Made by a program: the position numbers and the translations under genes. The notes beneath the pieces were generated by a model. The model made no database searches and had not been told where the DNA came from. It saw only the letters and a list, made by a program, of their open reading frames with translations. Positions 2,165 through 33,629 of a stretch of 34,398 nt of DNA are shown piece after piece (the stretch's first letter is position 1; every line of letters begins with the position of its first letter). Source of the stretch: Prevotella sp. (GTDB taxonomy: Bacteria; Bacteroidota; Bacteroidia; Bacteroidales; Bacteroidaceae); contig JAFTQG010000041.1 in assembly GCA_017462915.1 (NCBI GenBank), positions 1-34,398 on the forward strand. Reading direction: 5' to 3'.

Positions 2165-4593
2165 ATGAAGACCAAACAATTTGTACACCTGCATGTGCAT
2201 TCGCATTATTCCATTATGAACGGATGCAACACTGTTCAACAATTGGTGGATAGCGCCATAAAGAACCGAATGGAAGGCATGGCACTCACGGACACAGGGA
2301 ATATGTACGGCATCATGGAGTTCTTTGACTATGTGAGCAAAGTCAACTCAAAAAGGAAAGAGAGCAAGCAAAGACCATTTAAGCCTGTCATCGGTTGTGA
2401 ACTATACGTAGCAGAATACAGCACAAAAGAGCAAACGGAAGAGACAAGAGACCGAAAGGGTTACTGTTTGACAGTTCTTGCAAAGAATTTGACAGGTTAC
2501 AGAAATCTTGTGAAGTTAGTTAGCAATGCCCGGACAGACGGTTTTTATGCAAGTCCACGGACTGATCGAATAGAGTTAGAGAAGTATCGGGAGGGGCTGA
2601 TTGTCTGCTCGGGTGGTATTGAAAGCGAGGTTTCACCCATGCCATGAAGGAGGACATGAAGGCGTTAGAAGAAACAATCAAATGGTATAGGAATATCTTT
2701 GTCGATGACTACTATATAGAATTACAACGATATACCCATCAAGGAGTTAAAAATCATGATAACCTAACGAATGAACAGGAGAAGGTAAATCAGATTCTCT
2801 TATGGAAAGCTAAAGAACTTGGCGTTGAGGTCATAGGTACCAATGATGTACGATTTATAACCAAATTCTACGCAGAAGCAAATGAGTACCAAAATCGGAT
2901 AGCATTATGTGATTCTATGCCGCAAGTCTGGCAAGAAGCCAATAATTAGAAATGGTTGAAGAGTAGAAGCGACATGAATGAGTTGTTTGCCGACATCCCT
3001 GAAGCCATCGACAATACAGTGGAAATTCTGGAAAAGGTGGAATTCTATGATATTCATCATGCTCCCATTTATCCACAAATCGCCATGAAGGGTAATTCTG
3101 GCAATGTTCAAGAGCAGTCTGAGTATGGTAGCCTGTGTGAGTTGGTCTATGAGAAGGCCAAACAAATCTATGGCTGTCCACTACCTGAAGAAGTTGATGA
3201 ACGTCTGCGTTTTGAACTTGAGGTTATCAAAGAGAATAATGCATCCAGCTACTTCCTCTTCATACAGGAACTTGTTGTCGTTGCCACAGAACAACTTGAT
3301 GTGTTGGTCGGTCCTGGGCGCGGATCTACGGCTGGCTGTCTGGTGGCATACTGTCTGGGAATTACCAAGATAGATCCCTTAAAACACGACCTGCTATTTG
3401 AAAGGTTTCTCTGTCCCGGACATCCATCCATGCCAGATATTGACCTCGATTTTGATGAAGAAGGACGGACTCGGATAATAGACTGGCTGGAACAGAAATA
3501 CGGAAAGGAATGTTGTGCACATATCATCACTTTTGCAAGGATGTCTGCCAGAAAAGCTTTTATGTCTGTGGCTCAGGTGGAAGGACTTTCTCCATCACTC
3601 ACAAACAGTATTGGCGAAATTTTATATGGGGTCAATTGTGGATTGGCGAATCTAATCAAGACTTCTACAGCTTTGAAGAAAATGATGCGATCAGATGCAA
3701 CAATCCAAAAAGTGTTCCAAATTGCACAGATGCTGGAAGGAACAGTCTGTGATACAGGCCTCCATGCTTGTGGATATGTCATTAGCAATAACCCTGTTGA
3801 TGATTATGCTCCAACTTCGATGGTGACAGCATCCGATTGTAACAGGGGTATATGCCGTTGTGTACAGTACGATGGCTATCATGTGGAATCAACAGGATTG
3901 GTTAAGATGGATTTCCTGTGTTTTGACAAACTTACTCAGCAGAAGGCAATCTGCGAAAGAATAAAGGCTTCTCGGGGTATAGACATCAACCTTGACCTCA
4001 TCCCTACAGATGATGTCAAGACATTTGAACTATTCCAAAAAGGAGAAACACAAGGCGTATTTCTTTTCGAGACAGAGGGCATGAGGAAGTATCTTCGCAA
4101 ACTGCGACCCACTCAGTTTGGAGATTTGGTTTTTCTGAATGCCATCTACCGTCCAGGAATAATGAACAAGATTCCCACATTAATCGCTCAGAAGACAGGC
4201 CGGAAAGAAATCCGTTATGCCATCCCCTGTATGGAAAAGTACCTGCACGATACTTATGGCATTTTGGTTTACCAAGAACAGTTGATGCTACTATCCAGAC
4301 AGATTGCTGATTTTAGCAGAGAAGAAAGTTATAAATTGCGAAAGGCTTTGGGCAACAAGAAATTTAAGGAGTTGGAAGACCTGAAAATCAAATTCATTAC
4401 TGGTGGCCTGAAGAATGGGTACGCGAAGAGTGTTCTCATGAAGATTTGGAACGATTGGGAAAAGTCTGGAACATATCTCTTCAACAAAGCCCATGCCGTT
4501 TGCTACTCATGGATTGCCTACCAGACTGCCTACTTGAAAGCCAACTACCCAACAGAGTTTGCAGAAGTAATGTTAAGTGAAAAACAGATATAA
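2165..4593 (+). pseudogene. DNA polymerase III alpha subunit-like (DnaE family), broken by a frameshift and a nonsense codon
   Basis: Three adjacent pieces read as one DnaE-type protein of about 810 codons. The N-terminal PHP domain starts with HLHVHSHYSIMNGC. The frame is lost near 2630, where a T-run looks one base short: adding one T restores E-V-F-T-H-A-M-K. A second interruption is an in-frame TAG at 2947-2949, before KWLKSRSDMNELF. The palm retains GPGRGSTAGCLVAYCLGI and PDIDLDFDEE, with catalytic-type Asp codons at 3436, 3442 and 3448, plus VKMDFLCFDKLTQ. The protein ends soon after YQTAYLKANYPTEF, so the C-terminal duplex-binding and OB regions of a full DnaE (over 1000 aa) are absent. 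It is an accessory copy, not the replicative polymerase. Sequencing error could explain the frameshift but less easily both lesions. Confidence 0.8.
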
Positions 4594-4597
4594 CGGA

Positions 4598-5584
4598 ATG
4601 AAGATAGAAACCCAAATTAAATCCATGCTGACAGAGATGTCTGAAGGCATCTATGAAAAGGAGCATATTCTCGCCATGGCACTGTTGAACGCTATAGCAG
4701 GAGAGAGCGTCTTCCTTCTCGGCCCTCCTGGTACAGCCAAGAGTTTGGTGGCACGTCGGTTGAAACTGGCATTCAAAGATGGTAACGCCTTTGAATACCT
4801 GATGTCTCGTTTCTCTACGCCAGATGAAATCTTTGGCCCAGTATCTATATCTCTCCTAAAGAACGAGGACCGATACGAGCGTGTTGTGGACGGTTTCCTG
4901 CCCACGGCAGCTGTTGTATTCCTTGATGAAATATGGAAAGCCAGTCCTTCCATACAGAATGCCTTGCTGACGGCCATCAACGAGCGCGTCTTCCAAAACG
5001 GGCGAAACACTTTGTCGTTGCCTATGAAAGCTCTGATTGCAGCAAGTAACGAACTTCCTGCTGAGGACGAAGGGCTGGAGGCTCTTTGGGATAGATTCCT
5101 TGTGCGCATGGTGTCAAACTGCATCCAGACAGGAAACGTATTCTACAAGATGATTCGGCAGAAATCCATTAGTGCCATTGTCATCCCTACAGACTTGCAG
5201 ATAACGGATGAGGTCTATGAATCATGGCAACATGACATCAACCTCATTGCTATACCCGATGACGTATGTAAGGCAATATCAGCCATCAGGAAACGACTGA
5301 AGGAGGAAGTGACGCAGGAAGGACACAAGGACATGAACTACTATGTGTCTGACCGACGATGGAAAAAGTGTTTCCATCTCATGCAGACGGCATCATTCCT
5401 GAATGGGCGTAAAGCCATTGACATGACAGACATACCCATCCTTTTCCATTGCCTTTGGAATACGGCAGAAGTCATACCAACATCCTTCATGAGATGGCTC
5501 ATTACAAACACAAGCATCACCGAAAGTCCTTTTGGAAGTTCCTTTCACAGCTTCTTGGAGAGGATGCTGAAACACAGAAAATAG
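4598..5584 (+). CDS. MoxR/RavA-type AAA+ ATPase, with a 3' end that appears rearranged
   Basis: 328 aa from the ATG at 4598, five bases after the polymerase stop. An upstream in-frame GTG at 4577 would overlap that gene and looks less likely. The sequence has Walker A (GPPGTAKS), Walker B (VVFLDEIWKAS), sensor-1 (AASNELP) and an arginine-finger region (ALWDRFLVR), in RavA/MoxR order. These ATPases remodel partner proteins, usually with a VWA-domain partner encoded next door; none is present here. E. coli RavA is about 500 aa, so the C-terminal part is missing. Family-like sequence ends near 5460 (LFHCLWNTAEVIP). The remaining residues look like an out-of-frame reading of a different gene fragment. 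Confidence 0.7.
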   Translation: MKIETQIKSMLTEMSEGIYEKEHILAMALLNAIAGESVFLLGPPGTAKSLVARRLKLAFKDGNAFEYLMSRFSTPDEIFGPVSISLLKNEDRYERVVDGFLPTAAVVFLDEIWKASPSIQNALLTAINERVFQNGRNTLSLPMKALIAASNELPAEDEGLEALWDRFLVRMVSNCIQTGNVFYKMIRQKSISAIVIPTDLQITDEVYESWQHDINLIAIPDDVCKAISAIRKRLKEEVTQEGHKDMNYYVSDRRWKKCFHLMQTASFLNGRKAIDMTDIPILFHCLWNTAEVIPTSFMRWLITNTSITESPFGSSFHSFLERMLKHRK

Positions 5585-5768: not shown

Positions 5769-5783
5769 CAACGAAAAGAAATA

Positions 5784-5870
5784 CTCGGGGTGCTTCCGAT
5801 ACTTGATATTCATGTATGGAGGCTGAGATTATACCCATTGACCTGATGCAGATAATGCTGCCGTAGGAAA
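5784..5870 (+). promoter_or_regulatory. TPP riboswitch (THI element)
   Basis: The conserved aptamer parts occur in order: CTCGGGGTGC (5784-5793), GGCTGAGATTATACCC (5821-5836), ACCTGATGCAGATAATGC (5841-5858) and CCGTAGGAAA (5861-5870). They match the GGGGUGC, GGCUGAGA-AUACCC, ACCUGAUCUGGAUAAUGC and GCGUAGGGAA blocks of the family. It binds thiamine pyrophosphate and represses the biosynthesis genes downstream. Confidence 0.95.
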
Positions 5871-5910
5871 AATGAGAATGATTCTATCATTTATCACAAA
5901 AAGAACTTAC

Positions 5911-10033: not shown

Positions 10034-10182
10034 TAACGCAAAAAACGGTTGAGTACAGTTAGGCGGTTTTGCGGTTATACGGAGATTACTCCTCCTGTAA
10101 CTCACAACTTATAACTTATAACTCACAACTTATAACTCATAACCGTACTCAACCAAACCACTAAACAACTAAACCACCAAAC
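10034..10182 (+). repeat. Intra-operon inverted oligomer repeat between thiF and thiH
   Basis: A GT-rich arm is followed by GGAGATTAC (10081-10089) and an AC/AT-rich arm of reiterated units such as AACTCAC and AACTTAT. The outer ends GGTTGAGTAC (10047-10056) and GTACTCAACC (10145-10154) are perfectly complementary. It occupies the whole gap before thiH. Confidence 0.75.
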
Positions 10183-11337
10183 ATGTTTTCAGACGAATTA
10201 CTCAATATAAGCTGGGACGAGACTACAGAGCGCATATCCCGTATGAGCGACAGTGATGTAAGACGTGCACTTGCCAAGGAGCACTGTGACGTGAACGACT
10301 TCATGGCTCTTGTCTCTCCTGCTGCAACTCCTTATCTGGAGCAGATGGCACGGCTGTCACGCAAATATACCGAGGAGCGCTTCGGCAGGACGATGTCCAT
10401 GTTTATACCGCTGTATATAACAAACTCATGCTCCAACTCCTGCGTCTACTGCGGCTTCCACCGCTCCAATCCGATGCCACGCACGATACTTACATACGAA
10501 CAGATAGAAGATGAATACAAGGCCATAAAACGACTCGCGCCGTTTGAGAATATCCTCCTTGTCACAGGCGAGAATCCAGCAAAAGCCGGTGTGCCATATC
10601 TTGCCAAAGCCATTGATATAGCGAAGAAATACTTTTCAAATATCAAGATTGAGGTGATGCCTCTGAAGACCGAGGAATACCGTGAACTCACACAGCACGG
10701 ACTCAACGGCGTGATATGCTTTCAGGAGACATACCATCGTGAGAACTACAAGCTGTACCATCCCACAGGCATGAAGTCCAATTTCGAGTGGCGTGTCAAC
10801 GGCTTTGACCGCATGGGGCAGGCTGGGGTACACTCCATCGGCATGGGTGCTCTGCTTGGTCTTGAGAAGGAATGGCGCACGGATGTTGTCATGATGGCAT
10901 ACCATCTGCGCTATCTGCAAAAACATTATTGGAAGACGAAATACTCAGTGAATTTCCCGCGTATGCGCCCTGCACAGAACGAGGGATTCCAGCCCAACTG
11001 CTTTGTCAATGACAGGGAACTGGCACAGGTGACATTTGCCATGCGCATATTCGACCATGATGTAGACATATCATACTCCACACGCGAACCGCAGTTTATC
11101 CGTGACAATATGTGCACACTCGGCGTGACCACAATGTCGGCAGAGTCAAAGGTGAATCCAGGAGGATACCATACCTATCCGCAGGCCTTGGAACAGTTTA
11201 TTGTATCCGACGACCGTACAGCCATGGAGATAAACCGCCGTCTGAAGGAGTTGGGACGCGAGCCGGTATGGAAAGACTGGGATGCTTCCTTTGACCTCTT
11301 CGGTAGTCTGTCTACGGAAAAGAGGGCAAAAGCCTGA
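10183..11337 (+). CDS. thiH: 2-iminoacetate synthase ThiH
   Basis: 384 aa, the usual ThiH length. A radical-SAM protein that cleaves tyrosine to dehydroglycine (2-iminoacetate) and p-cresol for thiazole formation. The cluster motif is C83-x3-C87-x2-C90 in SNSCVYCGFHRSNP. VTGENP, GMGALLGLE and the C-terminal VNPGGYHTYP stretch are family-like. It is preceded and followed by repeat-filled gaps, unlike the tightly packed first five genes, so the operon is still co-directional but loosened here. Confidence 0.93.
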   Translation: MFSDELLNISWDETTERISRMSDSDVRRALAKEHCDVNDFMALVSPAATPYLEQMARLSRKYTEERFGRTMSMFIPLYITNSCSNSCVYCGFHRSNPMPRTILTYEQIEDEYKAIKRLAPFENILLVTGENPAKAGVPYLAKAIDIAKKYFSNIKIEVMPLKTEEYRELTQHGLNGVICFQETYHRENYKLYHPTGMKSNFEWRVNGFDRMGQAGVHSIGMGALLGLEKEWRTDVVMMAYHLRYLQKHYWKTKYSVNFPRMRPAQNEGFQPNCFVNDRELAQVTFAMRIFDHDVDISYSTREPQFIRDNMCTLGVTTMSAESKVNPGGYHTYPQALEQFIVSDDRTAMEINRRLKELGREPVWKDWDASFDLFGSLSTEKRAKA

Positions 11338-11339
11338 AA

Positions 11340-11468
11340 TACGGTTTTACGGTTGCTTGCGGTTATACGGTTGTCTGGTGGTTTGGTAGTTTAGTTGTAT
11401 GTCTATTCAACCAAAGCCAGCCACCAAACAGCCAAATGACCAAACCACTAAACCACCAAACGACCAAG
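11340..11468 (+). repeat. Intra-operon inverted oligomer repeat between thiH and tenI
   Basis: A GT-rich arm (CGGTTTTACGGTTG, then GGTGGTTTGGTAGTTTAG) is opposed by an AC-rich arm (CCAAACCACTAAACCACC), about 40 bases apart. It is the same composition and orientation as the element at 10034-10182 but lacks the GGAGATTAC core. Confidence 0.65.
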
Positions 11469-11471
11469 ACA

Positions 11472-12044
11472 ATGTTTACAACTATAGTCATAACACGCCC
11501 TACATTCTCATGTGACGAAGTCGAGCAAGCCGCCAGACTTCTAAGGCATGAGGATGTGGGGCTTTTGCATATACGTAAACCGCACTCCAGTGAGGAAGAG
11601 ACAGAAGAGCTTGTGCGCCAGTTGGCAGAAGAATGGCATGACCGCCTTGTGCTGCACGACCATTTTCATCTTGCACAGCGTTATGCCCTGCACGGCGTGC
11701 ACCTCAATTCGCGCAACCCTCTGCCTCCCGAAGGATGGCATGGGACTGTCAGCCGCAGCTGCCATAGCTTGGAAGAGGTGAAGGCGTTCAAGGAGAGATG
11801 CGACTATGTGTCTCTGTCTCCGATATTCGACTCAGTCTCCAAACAGGGCTATCATTCCGCTTTCAGCAGGGATGTGATAGCCGAAGCCGTTGCCGACGGC
11901 ATCATAGACAGCAAGGTATACGCCCTTGGAGGAGTGAGGTTCTCCATGCTCGCCACCGTCAAGGAAATGGGATTCGGCGGAGCGATGATACTTGGAGATG
12001 CGTGGAATACATACGGTCATACGGCTGTGAGTTATCAGTTATGA
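11472..12044 (+). CDS. TenI/ThiE-like protein, probable thiazole tautomerase
   Basis: 190 aa from the ATG at 11472 (MFTTIVITRP). An upstream in-frame ATG at 11436 falls inside the repeat and would add an unlikely peptide. The fold is ThiE-like: LLHIRKP, VLHDHFHLA, LHGVHLNS, SLSPIFDSVSKQGY and VYALGGV. The ThiE loop GPxxxTxTK is replaced, and H98 in SRSCHS is in the region of the TenI catalytic histidine. TenI proteins aromatise the thiazole product of ThiG, which fits this operon. The final residues (VSYQL and the stop) are encoded by the beginning of the next repeat element. A second ThiE is possible but less likely. Confidence 0.78.
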   Translation: MFTTIVITRPTFSCDEVEQAARLLRHEDVGLLHIRKPHSSEEETEELVRQLAEEWHDRLVLHDHFHLAQRYALHGVHLNSRNPLPPEGWHGTVSRSCHSLEEVKAFKERCDYVSLSPIFDSVSKQGYHSAFSRDVIAEAVADGIIDSKVYALGGVRFSMLATVKEMGFGGAMILGDAWNTYGHTAVSYQL

Positions 12045-12165
12045 GTTGTCGGTTGTGAGTTATCAGTATGTGGAGATTACCATACCTCATAACTTATAAC
12101 TCACAACTGACAACTCATAACCTACAACCTACAACCAATAACCGTAAAACCTTATAACCGTATTC
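12020..12165 (+). repeat. Intra-operon inverted oligomer repeat between tenI and thiD
   Basis: The GT-rich arm (units like GTGAGTTATCAG and GAGTTGTCGG) begins inside the last codons of the TenI-like gene. GGAGATTAC lies at 12072-12080. The AC-rich arm has units such as AACTTATAACTCAC and AACCTACAACC. Order and orientation match the element at 10034-10182. Confidence 0.75.
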
Positions 12166-12172
12166 ATACATC

Positions 12173-12943
12173 ATGAAGACAATACTAACAATAGCAGGGA
12201 GTGACACCTGCGCCGGTGCCGGGATACAGCAGGATCTGAAGACCATCACGTCCTTGGGCCACTACGCCGTGACGGTCCCCACGGCACTCACGGCACAGAA
12301 TACAGTAGGAGTTCAGAGGGTAATGCCCGTACCTGTAGAAATGTTGCAGGCACAGCTTGACTCTATACTGAGCGACATCGATATAGCTGCGGTAAAAACA
12401 GGAATGATACCCGACGCACTGTCGGCACGGATTATCGTCACTGCTCTGAGGCAGCTTGATGTCCCTATCGTGTGCGACCCCGTGATGATTTCCACAAGTG
12501 GCACACAACTTATGAACGATGAGTGCATCGAGACTGTCAAGAACGAACTGTTCCCCATCTGCACCCTTGTGACACCGAATATCCCCGAGGCCATACGGCT
12601 GGCAGGAGAGGCTACAGCAGACAGCCGTGATATAGGGAACATGTTGGTGGAGCGCTACGGCACTGCGTTCCTGCTGAAAGGAGGACACGCCGATAGCACG
12701 ATGATGACAGACCGTCTTTATACCACAGACGGCGCTGTCCATGAATACACATCACCGCGCATAGCAACGACAAACCTGCATGGGACAGGGTGCACCCTGT
12801 CAAGTGCCGTGGCGACACTGCTGGCAGAAGGACAAAACCTCGCTGATTCCGTCCGTGGAGCAAAGGCCTTGATAGACAAGGGTATAAAGCAGGGCCGTCA
12901 CCTCCACATAGGAAAAGGCAACGGTCCACTGTGGCTGTTCTGA
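12173..12943 (+). CDS. thiD: Hydroxymethylpyrimidine (phosphate) kinase ThiD
   Basis: 256 aa. A ribokinase-fold enzyme that phosphorylates HMP and HMP phosphate to the pyrophosphate used by ThiE. It begins with TIAGSDTCAGAGIQQDLK, the substrate-binding signature. VCDPVMISTSG and the anion-hole/catalytic segment LHGTGCTLSSAVA follow the family pattern. As last gene of the set it completes the pathway: ThiC and ThiD supply HMP-PP, ThiS/F/G/H and TenI supply thiazole phosphate, ThiE joins them. A T-run follows the stop, but no convincing terminator stem is seen beside it. Confidence 0.94.
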   Translation: MKTILTIAGSDTCAGAGIQQDLKTITSLGHYAVTVPTALTAQNTVGVQRVMPVPVEMLQAQLDSILSDIDIAAVKTGMIPDALSARIIVTALRQLDVPIVCDPVMISTSGTQLMNDECIETVKNELFPICTLVTPNIPEAIRLAGEATADSRDIGNMLVERYGTAFLLKGGHADSTMMTDRLYTTDGAVHEYTSPRIATTNLHGTGCTLSSAVATLLAEGQNLADSVRGAKALIDKGIKQGRHLHIGKGNGPLWLF

Positions 12944-13067
12944 GTTTTTTTAGACTGTATCCGTTAATTATTTTTCTGCAATACCATGCTCTGAAATTCC
13001 ATGATGCGTAGCATGATTCATGATATCCGCCACACACGTTAAATCAATTGTTCCGCAAAGACAAAAC

Positions 13068-13148
13068 AGAGGGTAACCTTTTACCACGAGAACCGTGACC
13101 TTTTGACAAGCAATTCGTCACTTTTCATATGGTAAAAGGTTACCCTCT
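13068..13148. repeat. Four GTNAC sites at 22-nt spacing inside a 19-bp perfect inverted repeat
   Basis: GTAAC, GTGAC, GTCAC and GTTAC start at 13073, 13095, 13117 and 13139, exactly 22 bases apart; the first three are followed by CTTTT or TTTT. The ends, AGAGGGTAACCTTTTACCA (13068-13086) and its perfect complement (13130-13148), form an inverted repeat. It sits in the 12944-13236 gap between convergent genes. Nothing else is recognised in that gap. Confidence 0.8.
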
Positions 13149-13236
13149 GAGGTATAGAGATTAATACATTGAATTTAATAGTATTAGTTGCGGATTTGAT
13201 GCTAATTTATTTTGTATTACTGGGCTGCTATGTAAT

Positions 13237-14406
13237 TTATATATCACCTACAATTATCGAAGACTCAGAAAAGTCAGGAATTGTTTTACCATATTGTTTG
13301 TCTATATCAGCTCCAGTCGTAAACAGTGTAGTTTCAAGTCTGCTTTTCGTAAGCCAATTAGCAAAACGACCTATACCAATTATATATTTAACATACAAAT
13401 TTGCGTTTATAGATGAATAAGACCTAAAATCAGGGTATGTAGAATATGTTATAAAATATTTATACTTGCGAGGAGAATTGCTTGTATTGTATTCAACACA
13501 TTGTCCTTTTTCTACATCTTGAAATGGAACTTGATAATACTCTGCCTCTGATATTTTTTCCCATTTATTCCACTTGTATTTCTTATACTTATGTTCTGAT
13601 ATATAGGCTGAAGAATGTGGAGGTATTGCCAATATACGTTGCTGGGTGTAGGTCGTTGAAACAGAAGATGATGTGCCGCTTCCTACTGATACGCCACCTG
13701 CGATATCACCAACGACACCGCCAACTCCCAATGCACCAGCAATAGCACCAAGCCCGACACTTGCACCAGAGCCGGAACCTTTTGAAACACTGATTTGTTT
13801 ATTATCATAAAAAGCTGTTGCAGCATTATCTATAGTCCTAAAACTATTACCTCTATCTATGTATATGATATTATGTGTTTTATTTGTTATTTCAATATAA
13901 TATCGGAGGACAATAACATCATGTGATGAACTTACAGTCTTCCTTACAAAACTCATCTCTATATCCTCATTAGAAAGTATAGATGAATCTTCTATTGCTA
14001 ATACAGGCAATTGGCGATGAGCCTTTCCTCCTCCTTCCAAAGTAAACTCAATATGAGGATTATATTTGCTTATAAGCGCAGCATTATTGGCCGCAGGTTG
14101 CTTCTCTACATATCCTGTCGCAGCATTATCGTTGGCAGCACCGGAGGAAGATGCTATCTTGTTGCCGGAAGCTGTACCGCCAAACACATCCTTCTCGCCA
14201 TTCATGTATTTTATCATGAATATCTTGTCCGTGCCTATGGTATATGTCGGCCCTGTCTTGTTAGACCATTTTTTGTAAGTGACCTTGCTCTCTTCTACAT
14301 TGATAACCTTGGCCTTGATTTCGTCTCCATTGCTTTTCACTATCAAGTCCTGGGCGTGCACTCCAGCTGAAACAAGCAGGAGCATCGGGATAAATAATGT
14401 TTTCAT
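13237..14406 (-). CDS. Exported protein of unknown function with a Gly-rich central segment
   Basis: 389 aa. A clear signal peptide (MKTLFIPMLLLVSAGVHAQ, cleavage after about residue 18) predicts export to the periplasm or outer envelope. Residues 20-75 (VKSNGDEIKAKV ... IKYMNGEKDVF) form a small beta-rich domain that I have seen at the start of many Bacteroidales exported proteins, with no defined function. Residues 210-245 are rich in Gly, Ala, Val and Ser (GSGASVGLGAIAGALGVGG) and could insert in or lie on a membrane. It starts 21 bases after the stop of the upstream leftward gene at 14428-16314, so the two are probably one operon. Confidence 0.75.
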   Translation of the reverse strand: MKTLFIPMLLLVSAGVHAQDLIVKSNGDEIKAKVINVEESKVTYKKWSNKTGPTYTIGTDKIFMIKYMNGEKDVFGGTASGNKIASSSGAANDNAATGYVEKQPAANNAALISKYNPHIEFTLEGGGKAHRQLPVLAIEDSSILSNEDIEMSFVRKTVSSSHDVIVLRYYIEITNKTHNIIYIDRGNSFRTIDNAATAFYDNKQISVSKGSGSGASVGLGAIAGALGVGGVVGDIAGGVSVGSGTSSSVSTTYTQQRILAIPPHSSAYISEHKYKKYKWNKWEKISEAEYYQVPFQDVEKGQCVEYNTSNSPRKYKYFITYSTYPDFRSYSSINANLYVKYIIGIGRFANWLTKSRLETTLFTTGADIDKQYGKTIPDFSESSIIVGDI

Positions 14407-18668: not shown

Positions 18669-18806
18669 GGATTGTCTTTTTTTTTTACGGTTATGCGGTG
18701 TTACGGTTATGCGGTTGCTTGCGGTTGTATGATATTGAGGTCAATGTTATAAGAAAAGTAATCTCCGTACAACCGTCAAACCATACAACCGTCAAACCTC
18801 ATACAC
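18669..18806 (-). repeat. Intra-operon inverted oligomer repeat between pyrB and pyrI
   Basis: Read on the minus strand, the direction of transcription, a GT-rich arm (TTTGACGGTTGTATGG units) is followed by GGAGATTAC (complement of 18758-18766) and an AC-rich arm (ACAACCGC, ATAACCGTAA units) ending just before the pyrI start. It has the same order as the elements in the thi operon. Confidence 0.75.
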
Positions 18807-31947: not shown

Positions 31948-31969
31948 TTGTGTACAAGAAACATTCTTG

Positions 31970-32806
31970 ATGAGAAATATCTTATTCGGACTTGCAGCCA
32001 TTGCATTGGCGACCATCTGTTCATGCAACGGCAAAAAGTCTGCCGATACAGAAACATCCGCCGTCACAGAAGAGAAAGACTCCATGCTCTATGGTCTTTC
32101 CTGTGACGGCACGAATGATTCTGTCATAGTCTTCCTGCCTTTTGAGAATGGTGTAGACCCGATAACATATAATATCGAGACAGCAAAAAGGATGGGCAGA
32201 ATCATCGGACAGCCACAGATAGGAGATTGGGTAGGTGTCAAAATCAATCCGGAAGACAGCACCGAGGCAACAATGGTCGTCGACCTTGACCAACTGAAAG
32301 GCACTTGGACTTACGAAGTGCGCCCGACATGGAAAGATGCAACGAAGATGTCCCGACGTGCCTTGCGCAGAAAGCTGAATGAAATACCTGATTCACTGAA
32401 AGAAGCGTATCTTGTACCGAGAGAATACGGTTTCACTCTGAAGCGTTCAAGTGTAGCTTCCCCTGTCGGTTATGTCATGCAGAATTCAAGTCTGGAAGAC
32501 GACAGTCCTGTAGAATACCCGAAAGTAAAACACTACACGGGCTGGAAATGCCGTAATGGACGTCTCATATTGACCAGTTTGACGGACAGAATGAGAGGCG
32601 TAAAGGCCACAGACGGTGAGAAGCAACCACAGAAGTCTGCGGAGATACACGACACTCTTGACTTTGTCTTCATGACCAACGACTCGCTCGTACTCCTGAA
32701 CAGTAAAGGACAGCGTATAGCTTTCCACCGCAAAGCCAGTGCCATGGCTGCAAATGCCAATGCACAGAAGGCAGCAGAAGTAACAGAGAAAAAGGTTGCG
32801 AAATGA
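31970..32806 (+). CDS. Lipoprotein of unknown function
   Basis: 278 aa from the ATG at 31970; a TTG just before it is less likely. MRNILFGLAAIALATICSC is a lipoprotein signal with C19 as probable lipidation site and S18 before it. The acidic tether (SADTETSAVTEEKDS) suits a surface or periplasmic lipoprotein. The body is beta-rich with no family I recognise. The tail is Ala/Lys-rich. It starts 22 bases after serA and ends at a good terminator, so it is the last gene of the serC-serA transcript. Confidence 0.8.
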   Translation: MRNILFGLAAIALATICSCNGKKSADTETSAVTEEKDSMLYGLSCDGTNDSVIVFLPFENGVDPITYNIETAKRMGRIIGQPQIGDWVGVKINPEDSTEATMVVDLDQLKGTWTYEVRPTWKDATKMSRRALRRKLNEIPDSLKEAYLVPREYGFTLKRSSVASPVGYVMQNSSLEDDSPVEYPKVKHYTGWKCRNGRLILTSLTDRMRGVKATDGEKQPQKSAEIHDTLDFVFMTNDSLVLLNSKGQRIAFHRKASAMAANANAQKAAEVTEKKVAK

Positions 32807-32857: not shown

Positions 32858-32933
32858 GCTTTTATGCTATACTATACTGTCAGTCATACAGTTAACACGC
32901 TCACAGGCAGAAGCTAAAAGAAACTGTTTCTAA

Positions 32934-33030
32934 GGGTGACAGTTCATTGCGCGAAAAATGACGGTTGAGTATACGAAAGGTGACCTGCCGCATGATAGAA
33001 GGTGACCTTTGCAAAATATCATCATGACAG
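32934..33030. repeat. Five GGTNACC-like sites at exact 22-nt spacing upstream of the HD gene
   Basis: GTGAC, ATGAC, GTGAC, GTGAC and ATGAC start at 32936, 32958, 32980, 33002 and 33024, each 22 bases apart. Most have A-rich bases on the left; the fourth is a near-palindrome, GAAGGTGACCTTTG. A degenerate TGAC at 33045 is two bases out of step. The array lies between the terminator and the HD gene start. Confidence 0.8.
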
Positions 33031-33071
33031 TCATAATATTATTCTGACGTGTCTGAAAAAACAACTGATTT

Positions 33072-33629
33072 ATGTTGGACTTTGATAAAATCATAGATAT
33101 GTACTATCCCGGGGCCAGTAAGCTTCGGGATATACTTTATGTACATAGTCGTAACGTCGCGGACTATGCTATGCAAATCCTCGACAGACACCCCGAGATA
33201 GCCGTAGACCGAGAGTTTGTATATGCCGCAGCAATGCTTCATGATATTGGCATAATACGCTGTGATGCAGAGGGTATCAAGTGTTTTGGCTCCGAGCCGT
33301 ATATATGTCATGGCACCATTGGAGCACGTATGCTGAGAGAAGAGTCAGGCTTGCCTTTAGACAAAATCGAGCGCTATGCACGAGTGTGCGAGAGACATAC
33401 GGGCACAGGATTGACAAAAGAACAGATTATACGCCAAAACCTCCCGCTTCCGCATATAGACCTTATACCGGAGACATTGGAAGAGCAGATTATATGTTAT
33501 GCAGACAAATTCTTTTCCAAGACCCGTCCGGACTGTATGAAGCCATACGACCGTGCGGAGCACTCGCTTATGAAATTCGGTGAAGATGGCGTCCGAAAGT
33601 TTCAGGCGTGGCACAGACAGTTTAGGTAA
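33072..33629 (+). CDS. HD-domain phosphohydrolase-like protein
   Basis: 185 aa. The metal-binding HD pattern is visible as H25 (YVHSRNVADYA), H57-D58 (AAMLHDIGI), H80 (ICHGTIGARML) and H109 (CERHTG). The HDIG form suggests a phosphohydrolase acting on nucleotides or cyclic nucleotides; the substrate is not known. The N-terminal part (GASKLRDIL) and the C-terminal YADKFFSKTRP are also family-like. No membrane segment. The gene lies immediately after the 22-nt array, which may control it. A 60-aa gene follows 22 bases later. Confidence 0.85.
   Translation: MLDFDKIIDMYYPGASKLRDILYVHSRNVADYAMQILDRHPEIAVDREFVYAAAMLHDIGIIRCDAEGIKCFGSEPYICHGTIGARMLREESGLPLDKIERYARVCERHTGTGLTKEQIIRQNLPLPHIDLIPETLEEQIICYADKFFSKTRPDCMKPYDRAEHSLMKFGEDGVRKFQAWHRQFR

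Follow-up and report, generated by a model that had tools for sequence, protein, structure and literature searches.

An array of four sites at 22-nt pitch upstream of an HD-domain gene in Prevotella sp. is one copy of a genome-wide family and very probably not an operator of that gene. Judging from sequence, and with confidence somewhat short of even, we read the family as a dispersed four-site element at which cooperating protein dimers would form a complex of about 88 bp, by which the chromosome would be marked or organised at intervals. The window, that is, the whole stretch of 34,398 nucleotides analysed, is contig C20 of a genome of 2.93 Mb in 59 contigs (G000). Its relevant features are as follows.

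13066 to 13150, no strand assigned: second four-core array, with GTAAC at 13073, GTGAC at 13095, GTCAC at 13117 and GTTAC at 13139; profile score 37.5.
31967 to 32806, plus strand: upstream neighbour ORF of 279 aa, with no Pfam match at E<=0.001.
32932 to 33012, plus strand: four-core phased array, with GTGAC, ATGAC, GTGAC and GTGAC at 32936, 32958, 32980 and 33002; pitch 22 nt; in place in the sister species G084.
33008 to 33037, plus strand: weak site resembling a promoter, which overlaps the last unit and matches the consensus at 9 of 12 positions.
33024 to 33028, plus strand: fifth RTGAC, probably outside the array.
33072 to 33629, plus strand: HD-domain gene of 185 aa (Pfam HD, E=2.6e-12), 3' of the array; a neighbour with no specific link to it.

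The initial annotation described five cores phased at 22 nt in non-coding DNA before the HD gene. All five RTGAC positions are real (32936, 32958, 32980, 33002 and 33024), and they do lie between the upstream ORF and the HD gene. Only four belong together: in the G084 counterpart cores 1 to 4 keep the 22-nt pitch and the distance from core 4 to the ATGAC equivalent to core 5 is 23 nt, so the array is counted as four cores, which is also the usual number in the family. That the phasing exceeds chance was confirmed. Within the window, the pattern RTGAC-N17-RTGAC-N17-RTGAC matched only at this array (three overlapping matches) and it was absent from 100 dinucleotide shuffles of the window; across the whole genome it gave 54 matches, corresponding to 41 arrays, against 0 for a reversed control. 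The promoter-like site at 33008 to 33037 is not evidence of function: 501 bases contain three such sites, where shuffles average 1.0.

The second array of the window (13073-13143), found by profile, has adjacent cores each 22 nt apart and ends, GAGGGTAACC and GGTTACCCTC, that are inverted relative to one another. It lies 19.9 kb from the first, between convergent ORFs at 12173-12943 (plus strand) and 13237-14406 (minus strand). The window also holds a TPP riboswitch at 5776-5887 on the plus strand (RF00059, 59.5 bits) and runs of imperfect 7-8-nt tandem repeats of the types TAACTCA, CCACCAAA, AACCGTCA and AACCGCAT at 10098-10183, 11340-11372, 11421-11467, 12028-12163, 18685-18716 and 18768-18798. 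Such runs sit mostly between ORFs and sometimes adjoin 22-nt arrays; those of locus L204 (about 2645-2790 and 4990-5070) match many places in G084.

The family is large. Requiring only two cores and leaving the second central base free raised the G000 count to 316 matches against 0 in controls, self-complementary matches being counted on both strands. A profile trained on loci from other contigs detected 13 arrays in C30 (237 kb) and 11 in C38 (160 kb), with scores of 33.6 to 76.0; five shuffles yielded none at score 10. The density in these contiguous stretches, one array per 16.5 kb, extrapolates to about 175 arrays in G000, well over a hundred per genome. Exactly four cores were present in 22 of 26 G000 arrays (those of C30 and C38 and the window's two, at a cut of 6), the other four having three. 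The arrays of loci L051-L088 had four cores in 29 of 40 cases and three in 7, with single arrays reaching 6 and 11, and four was again the number in 18/20 G084 loci; in the related genome G016, 39 of 53 arrays had four or five (cut 6). The 11-core array, in L059 from position 3728, consists of near-identical units (GTGACGGTTGACACGATR) and is a recent tandem expansion; some copying or expansion does therefore occur, which counts against our reading. Any base can occupy the core centre (48 G, 41 C, 7 A and 4 T among 100 cores); the core is therefore GTNAC, and on this account an early notion of a consistently inverted last core was given up. One array of the G000 type was found on an IMG/VR contig of 42.9 kb (L320, 2324-2374), which is perhaps host DNA beside a prophage.

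In the comparisons made with the sister species the arrays stayed in place and their cores were conserved. Two C30 arrays picked blind to G084 were both present there, and none of their eight cores had changed; the arrays were identical at 81/87 and 79/87 positions and the flanks at 517/593 and 478/540. In 19 aligned pairs, core positions were 96-100% identical, the spacer middle 83-92% and the flanks 86%, for a biased sample: the G084 loci, 20 in all, had been selected by eye because their arrays looked similar, and both sides had been found with the core pattern. Among these, L164 and L160 aligned poorly (70% and 73%), L164 being very likely not orthologous, and L165 had no partner.

Beyond the sister pair, the letters of the 22-nt unit vary by species within the genus; the G016 core, for instance, is TTG[AC][CG][GT]CAA instead of GGTNACC. 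A search free of any motif looked for the period itself. Ten same-genus genomes (400 kb) yielded 21 period-22 segments, with at least one in 8/10; every other period from 17 to 32 gave 0-3 segments, and periods 14-16 gave more. Seven further same-genus genomes (200 kb) yielded six, with at least one in 3/7, and 0-2 at periods 17-21 and 23-32. By eye, some of the period-22 segments are not clean arrays. Four genomes of other families (200 kb) gave 0, or 1 at a lower threshold. The bare RTGAC pattern matched in 28/72 same-genus genomes, G000 included, and in 6/47 genomes from other families, one of these having an 11-nt repeat; in some genomes the only matches were to the reversed control. A match in Propionigenium (L195) was judged by eye to be unrelated, having direct repeats with uneven spacing. 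It is likely that the arrays are concentrated in the genus, and presence outside it is compatible with the data. The G000-type array has three named carriers: Palleniella muris and P. intestinalis, which are cultured and each have an array of the GGTGACC type, and the MAG Prevotella sp. SC0317_S2_2. The motif TTRCNNNGYAA was tried and rejected as a spacer motif common to all species: strict 22-nt pairs of it were found only in G001 and the 400-kb stretch of G016, and none in the other stretches examined, including G000.

The unit of G000, RAAGGTGACCYTTYRYNNKRYRAA, has two axes of symmetry separated by 11 nt, one at the centre of the core and one midway between cores. The near-palindromic character noticed in the initial annotation was borne out by permuted-column tests on units copied from the listings: dyad symmetry about the best axis was significant in five of seven species families (P<=0.0023 in G000, G093, G017, G070 and G030). 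In the other two it fell short of significance (P 0.066 in G066a, P 0.073 in G032), which counts against our reading. The symmetry is not accompanied by significant covariation. No significant pairing excess was found at mirrored positions of 115 G000 units (smallest P on the axis 0.25); for 158 cores and 105 spacers of G016, the smallest of 18 P values was 0.04, at ±7 of the core, and mutual information reached nominal significance at ±4 and ±5 of the core, where pairs fell below expectation. Symmetry without significant covariation is more easily explained by dimers on double-stranded DNA than by hairpins. In G016, self-complementarity is avoided beside each dyad axis (paired 0.23 against 0.50 expected, and 0.20 against 0.42); its sites may each have a direction. 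A pitch of 22 bp slightly exceeds two relaxed helical turns, so the placement of all sites on one face of the DNA, as first proposed, holds only approximately.

With respect to genes, none of 39 classified G000 arrays was flagged as lying inside a called gene; the total is 41, L084 and the window array having no called gene on one side. The 39 occupy 26 tandem, 7 convergent and 6 divergent gaps, against 107, 15 and 29 in a background of 151 gaps. Four of the 41 (L051, L065, L077 and L084) lie inside small ORFs of 78-106 aa, and with an ORF-length caller overlap with an ORF of at least 80 aa was seen for 1/13 arrays in C30, 3/11 in C38 and 3/53 in G016. Convergent gaps hold 6/13 arrays in C30, 0/11 in C38 and 19/53 in G016. 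Convergent gaps are mildly favoured in three of the four sets, and divergent and tandem gaps are used too; with all gap orientations in use, the arrays cannot be identified by their position as terminators or as promoter elements.

Arrays keep apart from one another. Along the chromosome they typically recur every 8 to 20 kb, and in contiguous stretches of G000 a distance of about 7-8 kb or more separates neighbours. Among listed arrays, 74 within-contig G000 intervals ranged from 7.9 to 45.9 kb, and none was below 7 kb against 24.5 expected, a deficit not reached in 20,000 simulations of uniform placement. The test covered 101 listed arrays on 27 contigs whose length is known (2.08 Mb in total), leaving out 14 contigs of unknown length with listed arrays and those without a listed array; one of the contigs left out, C26, has a single interval of 6.9 kb, below the 7.9-kb minimum of the tested set. 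Strict patterns overlook weaker arrays, such as the second one of the window, and the list used for this test is therefore incomplete. The profile scan of C30 and C38 gave 22 intervals, of 9.0 to 40.9 kb. When arrays were placed at random among gaps of at least 120 bp, with genes defined by the ORF-length caller, the lack of intervals below 7 kb persisted (C30 0/12, mean 4.1, P=0.001; C38 0/10, mean 3.4, P=0.008). An initial gene caller of lower quality gave a weaker deficit, measured below 5 kb (P=0.068 in C30, P=0.023 in C38), which counts against the spacing argument. G016 is the densest of the three genomes scanned contiguously, with 53 arrays in 400 kb, or one per 7.5 kb, as counted with a profile trained on the same 400 kb. 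Its intervals below 4.5 kb numbered 7/52 against 20.3 expected, which was not reached in 3,000 intergenic-matched placements, and those below 3 kb 6/52 against 12.3 (P=0.004); that such short intervals exist at all again counts against our reading. In G024, 10 arrays were detected in 400 kb, taking three unit types together, and their spacing was even compared with uniform placement (CV 0.33, P=0.0008); counting the intervals shorter than 2, 3 and 4.5 kb gave no information, there being only 9 in all. The three different 22-nt unit types of this genome lie between 1.0 and 1.4 Mb (L268-L287), two types being found side by side at two places. Even spacing could also come from target immunity or biased uptake.

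We propose that each core binds one dimer of a putative oligomerising DNA-binding protein, a general idea already present in the initial annotation and supported here. Four adjacent dimers, on nearly the same face, would build the 88-bp complex, with the DNA perhaps wrapped, and such complexes would act chromosome-wide, as domain or loop anchors, in compaction or in supercoil control, instead of on one gene. Action at the level of the chromosome is the proposed reason why the distance between arrays matters more than their neighbours. The DNA specificity of the reader would have shifted between species, so that the letters changed and the pitch and symmetry stayed. Array intervals are about 7.5 kb in G016, 16 kb in G000 and about 40 kb among the detected arrays of G024. 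A broader form of the proposal is possible, though we hold it with less assurance: a chromosome punctuation throughout Prevotella sensu lato, made of four- or five-dimer arrays of 22-bp pitch at species-set intergenic intervals, which would anchor or delimit domains and in which the dialect of the reader would change and the geometry stay fixed.

Several proteins were considered as the reader. EbfC of Borrelia binds GTnAC (PMC9610160). This nucleoid-associated EbfC/YbaB protein resembles the reader we postulate in both core and role; in several other species, however, the core is not GTnAC. The candidate was rejected, as the YbaB_DNA_bd domain (PF02575) was found in 0/9 genomes searched, including G000 (control positive in 8/14). 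Lrp octamers consist of four dimers, and Lrp/AsnC octamers would thus suit four 22-bp sites. Despite this attractive geometry, the candidate was set aside because the recognition helices of the two Lrp proteins of G000 do not follow the species motif. That of paralog 1 is nearly identical in G000, G003, G010, G016, G017, G024, G093 and G054, and that of paralog 2 in G000, G017, G024 and G070, in a comparison that drew protein from 17/30 loci, one of them (L255) in the wrong frame. RemA forms an octameric ring with a LytTR-related domain and is suggested to wrap DNA at poorly conserved repeats (PMC8481266). The likeness lies in a multi-subunit ring reading a repeat array and the difference in that RemA activates particular Bacillus genes. 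By analogy, a ring-forming reader of the arrays is possible.

Among other explanations, the one that survives best is a miniature interspersed repeat, MITE or REP/BIME-like, with inverted ends, moved by an enzyme with target immunity that keeps copies apart; we regard it as rather unlikely. In its favour, inverted core pairs GTGAC..GTCAC occur at 92 sites, and by eye the array ends are inverted in many listed copies. The families are lineage-specific, with several per genome in some species. Related copies exist in G016, where the top pair among 53 elements shares 78/91 positions against a shuffled maximum of 70; G000 shows a slight excess (63 elements, top pair 72/91 against a mean of 66.3 and a maximum of 71 in 60 shuffles). 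There is also a published precedent in BrickBuilt of Porphyromonas gingivalis, the nearest published repeat found. According to PMC4596501, this is an intergenic minisatellite-MITE with a 23-nt tandem unit in 1 to 22.8 copies, a leader and a tail and IS-like TIRs, present in 19 copies in one genome. It shares with the Prevotella arrays an intergenic, dispersed tandem-repeat organisation, near-equal unit length, inverted-repeat ends and a related host genus. The arrays differ in having a 22-nt unit, mostly four cores, about 175 copies by extrapolation, even spacing and species-specific letters, and by eye no leader or tail was noticed on those listed.

REP/BIME elements of enterobacteria are intergenic palindromic elements numbering in the hundreds, with proposed roles in supercoiling and nucleoid structure; REPs form hairpins, sit at gene 3' ends and accompany RAYT transposases. 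The Prevotella arrays, in contrast, show no significant covariation and use divergent gaps too, and Y1_Tnp (PF01797), the RAYT transposase, had 0 matches in G000 (control positive in 5/14 genomes), on which ground identity with RAYT/REP systems was rejected. Against mobility in general, the remaining G000 copies behave as near independent draws from one profile, and the two arrays chosen blind are both in place in G084. That clear recent copies are lacking in G000, and that the number of cores is mostly four there and in G084, argues against a mobile element, though G016 has related copies.

A species-specific self-recognition sequence for uptake or transfer, spread by biased recombination, seems improbable to us. 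Uptake sequences are short single motifs present in thousands of copies and often lie inside genes. The arrays are phased, about 80 bp long with four cores and almost confined to intergenic DNA, and this size and mostly intergenic position argue against biased uptake. What recalls uptake sequences is the combination of species dialects, described for the DNA uptake sequences of Neisseriaceae (PMC3630211), with many dispersed copies and the even spacing discussed in PMC1939737. In the latter paper Karlin is cited as taking even spacing for a sign of replication, repair or compaction; its authors doubt this for uptake sequences. Karlin's view, as given there, is a precedent for reading the arrays at the level of the chromosome. 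The arrays fit none of the known families compared.

That the array is a LytTR-type or other promoter-specific operator controlling the HD gene, as first suggested, is highly improbable. LytTR sites are direct repeats of an asymmetric motif of about 9 bp, 21-22 bp apart, and the 22-nt pitch resembles this spacing; the LytTR consensus is fitted exactly, by eye, by unit 1 alone (ACAGTTCAT). The HD start is about 65-136 bp downstream of the four cores, and G000 has four LytTR (PF04397) matches. The unit is dyad-symmetric, however, and the family occurs genome-wide in all gene contexts. Nor was the expected presence at orthologous HD loci found outside the sister species: only about 2/29 relatives (28 with 1.5 kb of upstream sequence, one with 344 bp) have a 22-nt array within 300 bp upstream, and with other letters, so the position of the array at this locus is not kept across the genus. 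Finally, LytTR number does not track array presence in the few genomes compared: there is one match in G016, which has arrays, and there are three in G054 and two in G056, where sampling of 40 and 60 kb, respectively, gave none. Identity between the LytTR proteins of G016 and G000 (C30) is low, at 0.29, in a comparison where several proteins were missing or, as for L309 and L315, read in a wrong frame.

A transcribed hairpin array (terminator, attenuator or structured RNA) is likewise highly improbable, for although each spacer can be drawn as a hairpin and many canonical copies as three hairpins closed by a stem, and although the mild convergent-gap lean of some sets is joined in G016 by 12/61 gene 3' ends against 4/45 gene 5' ends within 100 bp, mirrored positions have no significant pairing excess in two species, tandem and divergent gaps are used too, and Rfam at gathering thresholds placed no family at the arrays of the window and 10 loci; a hairpin of RNA or single-stranded DNA was rejected on the same pairing result.

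No account of such arrays was found in the open-access literature searched; most subscription journals and bioRxiv lay outside that scope, and a prior description is possible. To our knowledge, descriptions of bacterial chromosome domains of some 10 kb do not usually give them fixed borders in the sequence. If our reading of a dispersed site for cooperating dimers is true, an evenly recurring element with fixed geometry and species-specific letters would be a concrete handle on domain structure in Bacteroidales. It would also show a DNA-binding protein co-evolving with its sites, more than a hundred in number, and provide a species marker readable from sequence.
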